Shown here: one piece after another, positions 30,975 to 40,870 of the stretch
Layout of the letters: the number at the start of each line of letters is the position of its first letter
How positions within the stretch are numbered: position 1 is the stretch's first letter
Assembly (NCBI GenBank): GCA_016234445.1
Contig: JACRBT010000016.1
Span: 62,001 to 126,000 of the forward strand
Direction of reading: 5' to 3'
Length of the DNA: 64,000 nt
Source: Chloroflexota bacterium
GTDB lineage: Bacteria; Chloroflexota; Dehalococcoidia; Tepidiformales; Tepidiformaceae
Position numbers and translations under genes: made by a program
Notes under the pieces: model-generated
Databases searched by the model: none
The model's input: only the letters and a program-made list of their open reading frames with translations
Told to the model about the DNA's origin: nothing

Positions 30975-31391
30975 CGCCGCTCCGTCCCCGTCGCGGTGCG
31001 GATGACTGCGCGCAGAGGAGTCGATTCGCCGTGCCACGACTGTGAAGGAGTGGTTTCCCGGCAGGCCCGCAAGGCATCGACAATGGGTGCCCAGGCCCGG
31101 GGCATGGCTTGTGGTTCCAACGACCGCTCCCTGACGGTCGCGGCACGGCCAAGCGAGCGTCGGGCCATGCCAGTGAGGAAGCGCGCGGTGCGGATGACTG
31201 CGCGCAGAGGAGTCGATTCGCCGTGCCACGACTGTGAAGGAGTGGTTTCCCGGCGCGGCCGCGATGGTCGACGATGGTGCCCAGGCCCGGAGCATCGTGT
31301 GCAGTTCGACGGGCCGCTCCCTGACGGTCGCGGCACGGCCACCAGGGGATGGGGTCACCTGCGCCGCTCCGTCCCCGTCGCGGTGCGGATG
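30975..31391. repeat. Two-unit array of a ~190-bp repeat
   Basis: Three blocks repeat in order. A 71-nt exact repeat is at 30992-31062 and 31184-31254. A 15-nt repeat (GGTGCCCAGGCCCGG) is at 31086-31100 and 31276-31290. A 28-nt repeat is at 31124-31151 and 31314-31341. The spacing is 190-192 nt. A 30-nt block at 30975-31004 recurs at 31362-31391, starting a third partial unit. The 71-nt core contains the palindrome CTGCGCGCAG. The high identity suggests recent duplication or a dispersed element or RNA. Confidence 0.85.
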
Positions 31392-34984: not shown

Positions 34985-36007
34985 TCAGGCGGCTTGCCCG
35001 CCGCGGCGGCGCCCGGCGAGCCTGAGACCAGCGACGGCCGCGACCGCCGGGATGAGCAGCCAGATGGCGCCGACGACCACGACCGCGCTCGCGGCGGTCA
35101 CGCTCCGGGCGGCGTCGAGCGACCACTCCCAGGCGTCGGCGAAGGACTCACTGAAGGACTTCGGCCCGTTGTCCGGCTTCGGCTCAACCTTCCCGGGGAT
35201 GATGGGGCTGAGAGAGACGCTGATCGTGGCGAGGTCGGTGAGGTCGTCGTAGAGCTTGAGGCGTCCCTGGACCTGCTCGATCTGGGCGCGGATGCCGTCG
35301 ACGCGTTCGTTGACGGTGATGATTTCCTGGATGGTCTTCGCCTGTTCGAGGAGCCTGAGGTACTGGGCCTCGCTGCGTTCGAGGTTGCGAAGGCGGCTCT
35401 GGAGGTCGGCGTACTCCTCGGTCACTTCGTTCGAACCGGAGTCTTCGCGGTCGAGTTTCGCGCCGGGGAGGGTCCGGAGGGAGGCGAGGACATCCTGGTA
35501 GGCGCCGCTGGGGACGCGGATGGTGAGGCTGCCGTACTGGCGCTCCTGGCCGTCGTCGCCGGTCTTACGCTGGGCGAGGCTGGACTTTTCGATGAAGCCG
35601 CCCGCTGAGCGGGCGATGCGGCCGACTTCGTTGAAGGACGTCGAGACGTCGTCGGCGCTGAGCGCGAGGTTGGCGGTGAAGATGATCTTCCGTTCGAGGC
35701 TGGCGGCGTCGCCGGTAGGGAGGGGAAGGCCGCCGCCGGTCGTGGTGATGTTGCTGCCGGTGGCCGGGGGCTGAGGCCCGCCGGCGGGACTGCCAGTGGA
35801 CTGGCCCTTGGTGTCGCGGAGCGCGTAGCTGGATACCGCGGACTCCTGGGGGTTGCCGGTGGTCAGCTGGCTGAGGCTCTCACCGCCGCTGTCGTCGCCG
35901 GCGCCGCCGCCGGAGTCACCGCTGCCTTCGCTTCCGCAGGCGGCGGTGATGGCAAGGGTTGCGATGGCGGCCCCCAGGAGAAGCAGCCCGGTCGTCGGTT
36001 TTCGCAT
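34985..36007 (-). CDS. DUF4349-type lipoprotein
   Basis: 340 aa. Signal peptide with lipobox ITAAC near residue 24, a Gly/Ser-rich spacer, then the conserved core RKIIFTANLALSADDVSTSF, GSLTIRVPSGAYQDVLASLR, DVTEEYADLQSRLRNL-like region and a coiled coil (QYLRLLEQAKTIQEIITVNE). The C-terminus has one TM helix (VVVVGAIWLLIPAVAAVAG) followed by Arg residues. This is the architecture of the DUF4349 family. Function unknown. ATG 36007 has AAGGAG upstream. Its start region is duplicated at 37842, after the CorC-like gene. Confidence 0.88.
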   Translation of the reverse strand: MRKPTTGLLLLGAAIATLAITAACGSEGSGDSGGGAGDDSGGESLSQLTTGNPQESAVSSYALRDTKGQSTGSPAGGPQPPATGSNITTTGGGLPLPTGDAASLERKIIFTANLALSADDVSTSFNEVGRIARSAGGFIEKSSLAQRKTGDDGQERQYGSLTIRVPSGAYQDVLASLRTLPGAKLDREDSGSNEVTEEYADLQSRLRNLERSEAQYLRLLEQAKTIQEIITVNERVDGIRAQIEQVQGRLKLYDDLTDLATISVSLSPIIPGKVEPKPDNGPKSFSESFADAWEWSLDAARSVTAASAVVVVGAIWLLIPAVAAVAGLRLAGRRRGGQAA

Positions 36008-36116
36008 GATGCACTCCTTCCACGGAGGACACGTAGTCCTCATGGCACTCCAGACGCCGGGCGGGGCGTTTCGGTTCCATGGCCGCAAGAACGCCCCGGT
36101 CAACGGGACCGGGGCT
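35991..36116. repeat. Direct repeat flanking the CorC-like gene, copy 1
   Basis: Blocks shared with 37842-37956: a 20-nt block over the lipoprotein start codon (35991-36010 vs 37842-37861, one change), a 42-nt block (36041-36082 vs 37881-37922, 40 identities) and a terminator core (36094-36116 vs 37934-37956). Confidence 0.85.
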
Positions 36117-36450
36117 CGCGGAGCCGGGGGGCTGGAAGGGTCTCTCTCGACGCGGGTTCCCTTCAGGCTGACGGCGATCCCCGCTATCCTCGGAATGGCA
36201 ACCGCCGCAACAGCCGCGCAGGGCGGCGAGGAAGCAGGCCGCTTTTCGAGCGTACCGGGTTCCCGCTTGAACAGTGGGCCGTTCTTCCGCCCGAGGCCGA
36301 GGGCGACGCCCCGCCTTGCCCACGGCCTGGGCCGGCGGCCCGTTCTCTCCTGCTGACGACCTGATCCTCCCGGGCGCGCCCACGCCTACGACTCCGCCAC
36401 CGGCGCCAGGGGGAATCGACTGAACCAGAAATCGGAGCTCACCAACCATC
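36008..36450. other. 443-nt gene-free region upstream of CorC-like gene
   Basis: Contains repeat copy 1 up to 36116, including a degenerate copy of the terminator hairpin. From 36117 to 36450 there is long GC-rich sequence without a credible ORF. A leader regulating the divalent-cation protein is conceivable but I could not match a known riboswitch class. Confidence 0.5.
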
Positions 36451-37761
36451 ATGGGCGCTATCGGCCTTGAACTCGTCCTTATCGTTGTCCTTGTCCTGAT
36501 CAACGGTGTCCTCGCCGGCTCAGAACTCGCGGTCGTCTCGGCCAGGAAGGTTCGCCTCCAGCACCGAGCGGCGTCTGGCGATGCGGGCGCGCAGGTGGCG
36601 CTGGAGCTGGCGTCCGAGCCGAATCGCTTCCTCTCCACCGTTCAGATCGGGATTACGCTGGTGGGCATTCTCGCCGGCGCCTTCGGTGGGGCAACGGTGG
36701 CAGAGAAGCTGGCAGAACAGTTGGAAGATGCCGGGCTGAGCGACAGCGTGTCTGCGCCCGCAGGTGTTCTCCTTGTGGTCATCGGCATCACGTATCTCTC
36801 CTTGATCATCGGCGAGCTGGTGCCGAAGCGCCTCGCGCTCGCACACCCGGAGGCCATCGCAGCGATTGTTGCCCGGCCGATGAGAGTTCTGGCGATCGCC
36901 GGGACGCCGGTGGTGGCCGTCCTGAGCATCTCCACTGAAGCGGTGCTCCGGGTGCTTCGGCTGCGTGCGCCCTCGGATGTCGCCGTCACCGAAGAGGAAC
37001 TGAAGGTGCTGTTGCAGCAGGGCGTGGCCGCGGGCGTCATCGAAGCCGCCGAACATGAGATGGCGGCCGCTATCTTCCGGCTGGGAGACCGCCGTGTCGC
37101 CCACCTGATGACGCCGAGGCTCGATGCTGTGTGGTTGGATGTCGCCGACCCGGTGGAGCGTGCACTGGAACTCATGGCCGCATCGCCACATGAGCGATAT
37201 CCGGTCTGTGAGAATGGCCCGGACAACGTGCTGGGTGTTGTCGCCGGCAAAGATCTCTTCGCGCTGGTGGCCCGAGGTGAGTTACCGGATCTCCGCACTG
37301 TGCTGAGGCCGGCGCTCTATGTGCCGGAAACGCTCTCGGCCCTTGCGGTGCTCGAGCGCTTCAAACAGGCGCCGTCAACGCTCGCCGTGGTCGTCGACGA
37401 GTACGGTGGGACCAACGGCATCCTGGCGCTCACGGATGTGATGGAGGCGATCGTCGGCGCTCTCCCATCCGACGAGGTGGAGGAGCAGGCGATCGTGCGT
37501 CGCCCCGACGGCTCGTGGCTGATCGACGGAAGGCTGCCATTCGACGAGTTAGCGGCGCTCCTCCGTCTTCCGCGCTCCCCCGGCAGGAGCGACTACCAGA
37601 CGTTGGCCGGCCTGGTTCTCCACGAGATGGGGCACATCCCCTCGGTCGGTGACTCGGTCGACTGGGGCGAGTACCACTTCGAGGTGGTGGACATGGACGC
37701 GCGGCGAATCGATCGGGTCCTCGTCACACCTGGCGAGAGAAGCGGGGGGCTGCAAGGGTAG
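36451..37761 (+). CDS. CNNM/CorC (HlyC) family membrane protein with CBS domains
   Basis: 436 aa. N-terminal CNNM (DUF21) domain with about four helices (ELVLIVVLVLINGVLAGSEL, FLSTVQIGITLVGILAGAFG, LIIGELVPKRLALAHPEAIA), then a tandem CBS pair (VAHLMTPRLDAVWLDVADPV, PSTLAVVVDEYGGTNGILAL) and a C-terminal CorC_HlyC domain (LVLHEMGHIPSVGDSVDWGE). Family members mediate Mg2+/Co2+ handling. The third codon positions are less GC-rich than neighbours and the gene is bracketed by direct repeats of the adjacent lipoprotein's start region, both signs of acquisition. Confidence 0.93.
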   Translation: MGAIGLELVLIVVLVLINGVLAGSELAVVSARKVRLQHRAASGDAGAQVALELASEPNRFLSTVQIGITLVGILAGAFGGATVAEKLAEQLEDAGLSDSVSAPAGVLLVVIGITYLSLIIGELVPKRLALAHPEAIAAIVARPMRVLAIAGTPVVAVLSISTEAVLRVLRLRAPSDVAVTEEELKVLLQQGVAAGVIEAAEHEMAAAIFRLGDRRVAHLMTPRLDAVWLDVADPVERALELMAASPHERYPVCENGPDNVLGVVAGKDLFALVARGELPDLRTVLRPALYVPETLSALAVLERFKQAPSTLAVVVDEYGGTNGILALTDVMEAIVGALPSDEVEEQAIVRRPDGSWLIDGRLPFDELAALLRLPRSPGRSDYQTLAGLVLHEMGHIPSVGDSVDWGEYHFEVVDMDARRIDRVLVTPGERSGGLQG

Positions 37762-37841
37762 AGGCGCCCCGCCCCGCAAGAGCGTCAGCCACGGCCTCCG
37801 CTGGGGCCGCCCCGGCTGACGGCGGGAAGACGGGTAGCCTG

Positions 37842-37956
37842 GTCGTCGGTTTTCGCGTGATTTGGAAGACGCGCAGTTCCCATGGCGCTCCGGACGCCGG
37901 GCGGGGCGTTTCGGTTCCATGGGCACACGAAAGCCCCGGTCAACGGGACCGGGGCT
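37842..37956. repeat. Direct repeat flanking the CorC-like gene, copy 2
   Basis: See 35991-36116. Here the lipoprotein's ATG has become ACG on the minus strand, and the frame beyond it is lost, so this is a non-functional remnant. Confidence 0.85.
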
Positions 37957-37960
37957 TTCG
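37928..37960. terminator. Terminator between CorC-like gene and hsp20
   Basis: CGAAAGCCCCGGT (37928-37940) and ACCGGGGCTTTCG (37948-37960) form a perfect 13-bp stem with a 7-nt loop between two converging genes, so it can serve both. Confidence 0.75.
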
Positions 37961-37985
37961 TGGTGTGACCGCGGCCGGGGCGCGG

Positions 37986-38465
37986 TTAGTTCTGCGAAGG
38001 TGCGTCGATCACTCCCTGCGGGGTGATCTTGATGGAGCGGGCGCGGGCCTCTTCCTTCTTCGGGAAGGCCAGGCGAAGGACGCCGTGTTCGAAGGCGGCG
38101 GACGCCTTCGCCGCGTCGACGGTGGGCGGGAGCCGAAGGGCGCGCTGGAAGCTGCCGTAGCGGAGTTCGCGGCGGAGGTAGTTGCCTTCCTTGACCTCTT
38201 CCTGTTCCTCGGTCTCGCCCTTGATGGTGAGGATGTCGTCCTCGACGGAGATGTCGACGTCCTTGGGGTCGACACCGGGGATGACCGCCTTGACGACGAG
38301 TTCGTCGTTGGTGTCGAAGACGTCGATGAGGAGGGTGCTGGGGCCGAGCTCTTCGCTGCTGCGGAAGGGCAGGCGGCCGAAGCCCTGGTCGAACAGCCGG
38401 TCCATCGCGGTGCGCATGCTCGCCAGTTCGCTAAAGGGATCCCATCGGGTAAGAGCGCCAGCCAT
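37986..38465 (-). CDS. Small heat-shock protein (Hsp20/IbpA family)
   Basis: 159 aa. Alpha-crystallin domain: LLIDVFDTNDELVVKAVIPG, VDISVEDDILTIKGETE, YLRRELRYGSFQRALRLP, then the GVLRLAFPKKEE signature and an IxI-like tail. It is an ATP-independent holdase for unfolding proteins. The start ATG 38465 (MAGALTRWDPF) has a perfect AAGGAGG 6 nt upstream; the extension to 38489 is not used. Divergent from dnaJ, sharing a control region with an HspR-like inverted repeat. Confidence 0.94.
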   Translation of the reverse strand: MAGALTRWDPFSELASMRTAMDRLFDQGFGRLPFRSSEELGPSTLLIDVFDTNDELVVKAVIPGVDPKDVDISVEDDILTIKGETEEQEEVKEGNYLRRELRYGSFQRALRLPPTVDAAKASAAFEHGVLRLAFPKKEEARARSIKITPQGVIDAPSQN

Positions 38466-38499
38466 GGTTTTCCTCCTTCTGCTGGTCACAGGTGTGATG

Positions 38500-40024: not shown

Positions 40025-40870
40025 ATGACGGACTGGACAGTGGTCCCCGAAGACGGGCTCTCGAATGCCCTCAGGCTGAAAGAACTGCTCGGAGGTGACA
40101 GTGCTATTGCCAACCTTCCGTCTGGCCATCCCTTTCTTGGCGGTTTTCGCGCACTCAGAAGTCACGTCTCCGGCGCAAGGCTCAGCGATGTGGATCGAGC
40201 AGAGCTAGCGGAGCTGGAACTGATTGCAACTGGCGTGTTCCGATACCAGGTAGCATGGTCAGGCCATCGTGATGAAATAATTGCGCTGCTTAAGTCACCA
40301 AGACAGTGCCCGTCATTGACTTTTGAATTACAGGTTGGCATGCGAACACTGGAGAAAGTCTCGAACGGTGTCAAGTGGCAAAGCTTCGAGCATTCTAGTC
40401 CAGACTGGAGTATCGACGACCCGACATGCTTCGTCGAATGCAAGCTGGCCCGAAGTAGCGACAAGGCTGAGAACTACTCCGACTATCTTAGTCAGGCTGC
40501 AAAACAGCATCGCCACATTCAAGCGCCGCTGGTCATAGCAGTCGGGTTCGATGAGACCCTCACCGATGAGGTGTTGAAACGTATGGACGTTCAGGCCATG
40601 AGGCACCTCGCGTGGATGACCAGGCACCGAGAGGTGTCTCGCGTTCTCGTCTACGGACGATCAGGCTACCGCAGTCACGGCAGCGGTCCGCTTGGCCTAA
40701 ACGGTTTCATCTTCGGGCAAGAGCACGTGATCGAAATCAGCAACCACTCCGCGGAGCACCCGCTACCCGAGAACTTTCGCTTCGGGAGTGGCCCAGAAAC
40801 CTTCCGGGAGACCTTCCCGGGACCCATGGAGTCCCTGACCCGGCCGATGGCACAAGGAGGCCCGCGATGA
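40025..40870 (+). CDS. PD-(D/E)XK nuclease-like protein inserted in the chaperone operon
   Basis: 281 aa, no family recognised. A motif of the PD-(D/E)XK nuclease superfamily is visible: P126-D127, ten residues, then E138-C-K140 ([15 protein letters not shown]), with a Glu in [13 protein letters not shown] upstream, matching the alpha-beta-beta core. The DNA is visibly poorer in GC and has many A/T third positions, unlike flanking hspR and clpC, so it was probably acquired. It nevertheless starts at the base after hspR's TGA and its own stop overlaps the clpC ATG (ATGA), so it is translated as part of the stress operon. The C-terminal tail may derive from the native intergenic spacer. Possible defence or repair nuclease. 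Confidence 0.68.

Follow-up and report, generated by a model that had tools for sequence, protein, structure and literature searches.

The window, which is the whole stretch of 64,000 nucleotides analysed here, lies on contig C4 of a 3.54-Mb Chloroflexota genome (G000). It contains a DUF4349 lipoprotein gene and hsp20 on the minus strand, and the space between them is occupied by a CorC-like gene on the plus strand that is enclosed by two imperfect direct copies of the lipoprotein leader. The copies are 1719 bases apart, with one Pfam-matched gene (36451–37761) between them. The locus is composed of the following features:

34985–36007 (minus strand): DUF4349 lipoprotein gene, 340 aa (Pfam PF14257, E 4.4e-49)
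35985–36116 (minus strand): repeat copy A, with the first codons, ribosome site, promoter and an eroded hairpin
36053–36078 (minus strand): predicted ECF-type promoter of the lipoprotein gene, GGAAC-N17-CGTC (N17 motif in 16 of 16 relatives tested)
36093–36115 (minus strand): hairpin core of copy A, outer stem eroded
36117–36450 (plus strand): insert DNA 5' of the CorC-like gene, with a single match in its own genome
36451–37761 (plus strand): CorC-like CNNM-CBS-CorC_HlyC protein, 436 aa, probably acquired
37762–37835 (plus strand): insert DNA 3' of the CorC-like gene, unique in its own genome
37836–37956 (minus strand): repeat copy B, which retains promoter and hairpin, has ACG as its start codon and lacks the ribosome site
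37893–37918 (minus strand): second, identical predicted promoter GGAAC-N17-CGTC, aimed at the 3' end of the CorC-like gene
37926–37962 (minus strand): perfect hairpin of 16 bp downstream of hsp20, its probable terminator
37986–38489 (minus strand): hsp20 (Pfam PF00011, E 1.9e-21)

The lipoprotein start, the ATG at 36007, was picked by eye from the ribosome site and the lipobox, and a longer reading from a TTG is also listed. The flanks of the insert have no other match in their own genome and none in the loci compared from other genomes.

The protein encoded at 36451–37761 carries CNNM, CBS and CorC_HlyC domains in that order (Pfam), which places it in the CNNM/CorC family. It shares these domains with the PaeA/CNNM proteins, but scores below the cut-offs of both curated models: the nearest, that of the PaeA polyamine exporter, gives an E of 8.5e-96 and 321.3 bits against a cut-off of 500, and the CorC model gives 109.2 bits against 379. 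Judged from sequence models, the protein probably exports ions or polyamines, as a CNNM-type exporter of the ordinary kind. No transposase or integrase was seen among the ORFs of the insert, nor was a recombinase, with Pfam run on the CorC-like ORF only.

The first-pass annotation had described the gene as differing in codon bias. The direction of this difference is correct and its size is modest: GC3 is 0.785, compared to 0.818–0.92 in nine nearby genes conserved in relatives, and the codon score of −1.10 is the seventh lowest among 47 ORFs of at least 150 aa (mean −0.88, sd 0.15), a set that includes doubtful ORFs. The orthologs in two genomes of the same family, G008 and G024, have a GC3 of 0.787 and 0.837, respectively. 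Composition thus lends weak support to acquisition. The window also contains a 281-aa ORF with a GC3 of 0.63 (40025–40870), which lies between hspR and clpB, has a 39% homolog in the same place in locus L092, and is not conserved like the nine reference genes. It gave no Pfam, NCBIfam or PADLOC match, and its PDW..ECK stretch is taken by us as reminiscent of PD-(D/E)XK nucleases.

Two copies of the lipoprotein leader

The bracketing of the CorC-like gene by imperfect repeats of the lipoprotein start region, as first annotated, is borne out by alignment. The repeat search returned 93 nt at 88% and a 26-nt block at 92%, which a gapped alignment merges into direct repeats at 35985–36116 and 37836–37956. 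These are identical at 108 of 121 aligned bases, with 13 mismatches and a further 11 gap columns, and their alignment score of 149 compares to a maximum of 31 in 300 shuffles. A comparable repeat scan of 20 shuffled windows yielded 0 pairs. The two copies are the sole matches in their own genome (E ≤ 0.001) and therefore do not belong to a dispersed element. A 17-nt repeat (36125–36141 and 37743–37759, 16 of 17 identical), whose score is reached in 6 of 300 shuffles, was treated as chance, and a 37-nt match of copy B in locus L113 was likewise taken as such. Elsewhere in the window, a stretch without clear genes (30992–31341) holds two imperfect repeats, 79 and 66 nt long and about 190 nt apart.

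On the minus strand, both copies have the order hairpin, GGAAC-N17-CGTC, leader and lipoprotein start. The 42-nt near-identical block noticed in the first-pass annotation is present, and its reading as a predicted promoter, which had not been named there, is added here. Copy A has the ATG and the ribosome site, together with a hairpin lacking the outer stem. In copy B, the alignment displays the substitution of ATG by ACG that had been pointed out, so this copy cannot start translation, and 11 bases are lost over the ribosome site. The hairpin is found in both copies and is perfect in B only (z −4.9 and −7.5 in B; −2.3 and −2.0 in A). As to its earlier designation as a terminator, the hairpin itself stands and its terminator function behind hsp20 is probable; a consensus terminator scan of 35900–38100, in which a T run is required, found none. 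The description of the outer copy as a decaying remnant does not hold as it stands, for copy B is more than that: its hsp20 hairpin is intact and its promoter unaltered, and the eroded hairpin is that of copy A. We read each copy as whole only where its host gene needs it, with the hairpin in B and the start region in A.

No mismatch falls in the promoter and hairpin core (0 of 49), compared to 13 of 72 positions elsewhere (Fisher p 0.0008, for classes chosen afterwards). Blind permutation of the differences revealed no clustering by run length (2588 of 10000) or in windows (3714 of 10000). The promoters of the two copies are identical at 26 of 26 bases, and that of copy B may be maintained, or may simply not have changed yet. 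If copy B were kept as part of a functional pair, its promoter would produce a stress-induced antisense RNA against the CorC-like gene. The identity of the two promoters and the aim of the one in copy B at the 3' end of the gene agree with this reading from sequence, yet those same 2588 of 10000 permutations contain an identical run of at least the 30 columns observed, and we consider it very unlikely.

The predicted promoter of DUF4349 genes

The promoter motif was derived from the window and from seven relatives in which hsp20 and the lipoprotein gene are neighbours. In these seven, inspection by eye found the hairpin (with a T run in several), the motif, the ribosome site and the start once between the two genes. 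DUF4349 was found in 32 relatives, of which 16 were left out of the motif scan as partial, weak or from other families, leaving a set of 15 relatives of the same family and one of the class. The scan covered the 650 nt ahead of the DUF4349 match and 60 nt more, and allowed spacers of N15–19. Each of the 16 relatives has exactly one match, in all cases with N17, and the fourth base of the second box is C, T or A. Nine of these relatives, without hsp20 in the fetched stretch, were unused in motif discovery and constitute an independent test (9 of 9). The background amounts to 270 of 6800 random 710-nt pieces of those loci with the N17 motif, true sites included.

In the passages of the sources cited, the EcfG promoter is given as GGAAC-N16-CGTT (PMC7083833), the E. 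coli sigma E promoter as GGAAC with GTC (PMC6338062), and that of Tt-RpoE1 with CGTC at −10 (PMC3397946). The motif upstream of the DUF4349 gene shares GGAAC at −35 and CGTC/CGTT at −10 with these ECF sigma promoters, but differs from EcfG in its spacer of 17 instead of 16. By its boxes and spacing, GGAAC-N17-CGTC is predicted to be an ECF-type promoter, and from the conserved GGAAC-N17-CGT the DUF4349 lipoprotein is predicted to belong to an envelope-stress regulon.

The genome holding the locus has 35 Sigma70_r4_2 matches, some of which probably belong to other HTH proteins. Next to the best sigma match (L156) stands a motif that was considered as a clue to the cognate factor; by eye it seems to lie inside the coding end of that match, and it was dropped. 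A genome-wide scan for GGAACCN16CGTY gave 37 sites, compared to 8 for the reversed pattern. Thirty of the 37 were made into loci and nine were read by hand, three of which (L208, L209 and L212) lead into lipoprotein-like genes, with the motif 37–55 nt upstream of genes whose N termini resemble those of lipoproteins. These three may form a possible regulon of the same promoter type, and are suggestive only. In L213 and L215, the motif precedes two frames with similar N-terminal stretches and, by eye, a LuxR-type helix-turn-helix look; the L213 frame has no Pfam match.

The gap in relatives and the kinship of the CorC-like gene

In all seven relatives with this pair (7 of 7, from six genera of the same family), hsp20 adjoins the DUF4349 gene with one leader and without the CorC-like gene or the repeat, and none has a self-repeat in the gap. 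The adjacency is thus seen in seven of 16 relatives; the other nine are without hsp20 in the fetched stretch, and some of these stretches end at contig ends. The comparison spans genera, as the searches brought up no genome of the same genus and the empty site is known from other genera only, and blastn of the repeat against the loci of the relatives gave no match, so that single-copy status is judged from the succession of elements (hairpin, promoter, start). The site varies: in another five relatives, retrieved through Hsp20 (L087, L088, L091, L092 and L093), a DUF4349 gene was not detected next to hsp20. Contig retrieval by Hsp20 returned 41 loci, most of them distant, and retrieval by DUF4349 returned none, the 32 DUF4349 relatives having come from a separate search. 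Because seven same-family genomes have a single-leader gap without the gene, the CorC-like gene is most likely an insertion, and a gain at this locus rather than a loss in the relatives. This upholds the earlier suggestion that the gene between the repeats looks acquired. An arrangement shared by all relatives, named in the first-pass annotation as the outcome that would speak against it, was looked for and not encountered.

The CorC-like subfamily (E ≤ 1e-85, own genome counted in each set) occurs in 3 of 37 family genomes, some of which are incomplete, namely the present one, G008 and G024, the latter two at 56–57% identity. It is found in 6 of 393 genomes of the class and in 104 of 400 genomes drawn from the phylum. 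In the tree, the window protein joins those of G008 and G024 (100/100) inside a clade of 33 rows (100/100; the drawn root is the midpoint), of which the other 30 rows comprise 29 from other classes and one from another family of the class. The gene was apparently acquired from another Chloroflexota branch. In G008, whose own hsp20-DUF4349 gap is empty, the ortholog is on a different contig; the G024 ortholog is not beside hsp20 or DUF4349 on a 4.8-kb contig that ends 0.2 kb behind the gene.

These data also bear on an ancestral arrangement, in which the gene and its repeats would be old and lost cleanly in the relatives. Recombination between direct repeats would indeed restore an empty gap, but a clean loss would be needed in seven genomes of six genera, all seven without leftovers. 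Furthermore, the G008 ortholog lies elsewhere, the G024 ortholog is away from both neighbours as far as its contig extends, and the gene groups with other classes. We regard this reading as very unlikely. The notion that the repeats are carried along by the CorC-like gene was rejected, as brackets do not follow the gene at other loci. Among 45 CorC-like loci searched, a long two-copy bracket occurs at the window locus only; L038 has repeats of 67 nt (89.6%) and 44 nt (93%), which overlap on the right and are apparently dispersed, L135 and L155 have weak 23-nt bracketing matches, and the other 41 have none. The search set derives from 46 loci, with L145 left out for its short flank; three genes are present twice, and several flanks are below 450 nt, including those of both G024 loci (about 0.2 kb behind the gene).

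Similar brackets, the proposed insertion and known systems

A scan for direct repeats of 40–400 nt, at least 75% identical and 0.4–6 kb apart, found 10 pairs in 455 kb of the genome holding the locus (12 in an earlier scan on smaller units). Three, the present bracket among them, have just two copies in their stretch, and seven, with 3 to 6 copies, were set aside as dispersed or repetitive. The genomes G017 and G012, sampled at 400 kb each, gave two pairs apiece, of which one in G017 and the two in G012 were judged by eye to reflect coding similarity and left aside; the samples are too small to call the present genome richer in such pairs than its relatives. Two sharp-edged similar cases lie in the present genome, at window positions 143–194/1293–1344 and at C2 96816/98110, and a third in G017 (58238/58938).

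The repeat at 143–194/1293–1344 is identical at 52 of 52 positions and takes in the start of a CoA-transferase gene, with its leader and first codons. Between the copies, on the opposite strand, lies a 332-aa ORF that contains an HEMAH stretch and has one other, distant match in 400 phylum genomes (E ≤ 1e-6). The bracket is possibly a younger case of the same kind. Matching loci were found in 20 instances in relatives; 18 were scanned, none with a tRNA within the roughly 1.5 kb covered, and no empty site could be made out among them. The second case (C2 96816–98181; L252 16816–16887 and 18110–18181) is a 72-nt repeat at 90% comprising a tRNA-Asp 3' end and a hairpin, and its 1.2-kb insert has two ORFs inside or overlapping it, without a Pfam match. 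In G017 (C1 58238–59013; L264 18238–19013), HigB-like and HTH genes lie behind an icd-like gene (Pfam Iso_dh), and the pair is followed by a perfect 76/76 copy of the 3' end of the icd-like gene and then by a CopG/PIN pair.

The 3' ends of tRNA-Asp and of the icd-like gene are integrase-type targets, and these two similar places would suit a remnant or non-autonomous integrative element, inserted by a site-specific recombinase with the repeats as att sites. At the window locus, however, the sole Pfam-matched gene of the insert is the CorC-like one, no recombinase was seen among the insert ORFs, and the block covers the promoter and 5' end of a gene, which renders such an element highly improbable. 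It is also quite unlikely that the gap was first doubled in tandem and that the CorC-like gene entered later between the copies by an unrelated event. The 13 differences in 121 positions would leave time for two events, but the insert lies exactly between the copies without a third piece of the block, and the 52/52 and 76/76 pairs display similar brackets without divergence.

We consider it likely that a piece of about 1.7 kb, bearing a single CorC-like gene, was inserted between hsp20 and the lipoprotein gene and that this doubled about 120–130 bp of the target. The basis for this is observed: two copies, their order, the empty gap in seven relatives, and kinship with other Chloroflexota classes. 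The event would have doubled the hsp20 hairpin, the ECF-type promoter, the ribosome site and the first codons, and would thereby have saved both neighbours, each host gene keeping the half of the copies that it needs as the other halves decay. A single insertion would account for the locus rather than loss in the relatives. The DNA may have arrived on a circle that already carried the block and crossed over there, or through repair of a widely staggered break; no donor circle was found. The 13 of 121 differences would indicate either that the event is old or that the copies were unlike from the start.

It is poorly understood how single bacterial genes that bring no transposase or integrase get into chromosomes, and duplication of the target at gene edges would account for neighbours staying intact in such events. 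A more far-reaching reading is that, in this family, small non-transposon pieces holding one or two genes enter genomes again and again (the CorC-like exporter, a possible secreted metallopeptidase, unknown ORFs and a HigB/HigA-like pair) by one mechanism that copies 50–130 bp of gene-edge DNA and keeps the neighbours working, and that here also supplied a second envelope-stress promoter opposed to the new gene and with it instant antisense control. We put this forward tentatively and hold it to be on balance unlikely. A family with several cases of different age, from identical copies to copies diverged by 11%, would make the mechanism testable.

Among known kinds of event, insertion with long target duplication, reportedly the subject of Nobusato et al. 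2000 (Gene 259:99), is the best fit. At the window locus, none of the 7 relatives that pair hsp20 with DUF4349 has the insert at the orthologous site, the repeats correspond to a target that is single-copy in relatives by element order rather than DNA alignment, and the repeats are not dispersed, with no transposase or integrase seen in the insert. In the portions of the sources cited, the process is named from H. pylori and reported chiefly for restriction-modification genes, in comparisons of two strains of one species (PMC1643837, PMC3031569, PMC4978471, PMC3154945). The likeness lies in a gene at an orthologous site that is flanked by long direct repeats of the target, whereas the present case concerns a CorC-like gene and a comparison across genera instead of strains of one species. 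Transposed genes of Arabidopsis likewise consist of a non-transposon gene between direct repeats homologous to the target site, for which the cited passage proposes insertion of a circle (PMC2869330). They differ in belonging to a plant and in moving within one genome, whereas the CorC-like gene was probably acquired from outside the class.
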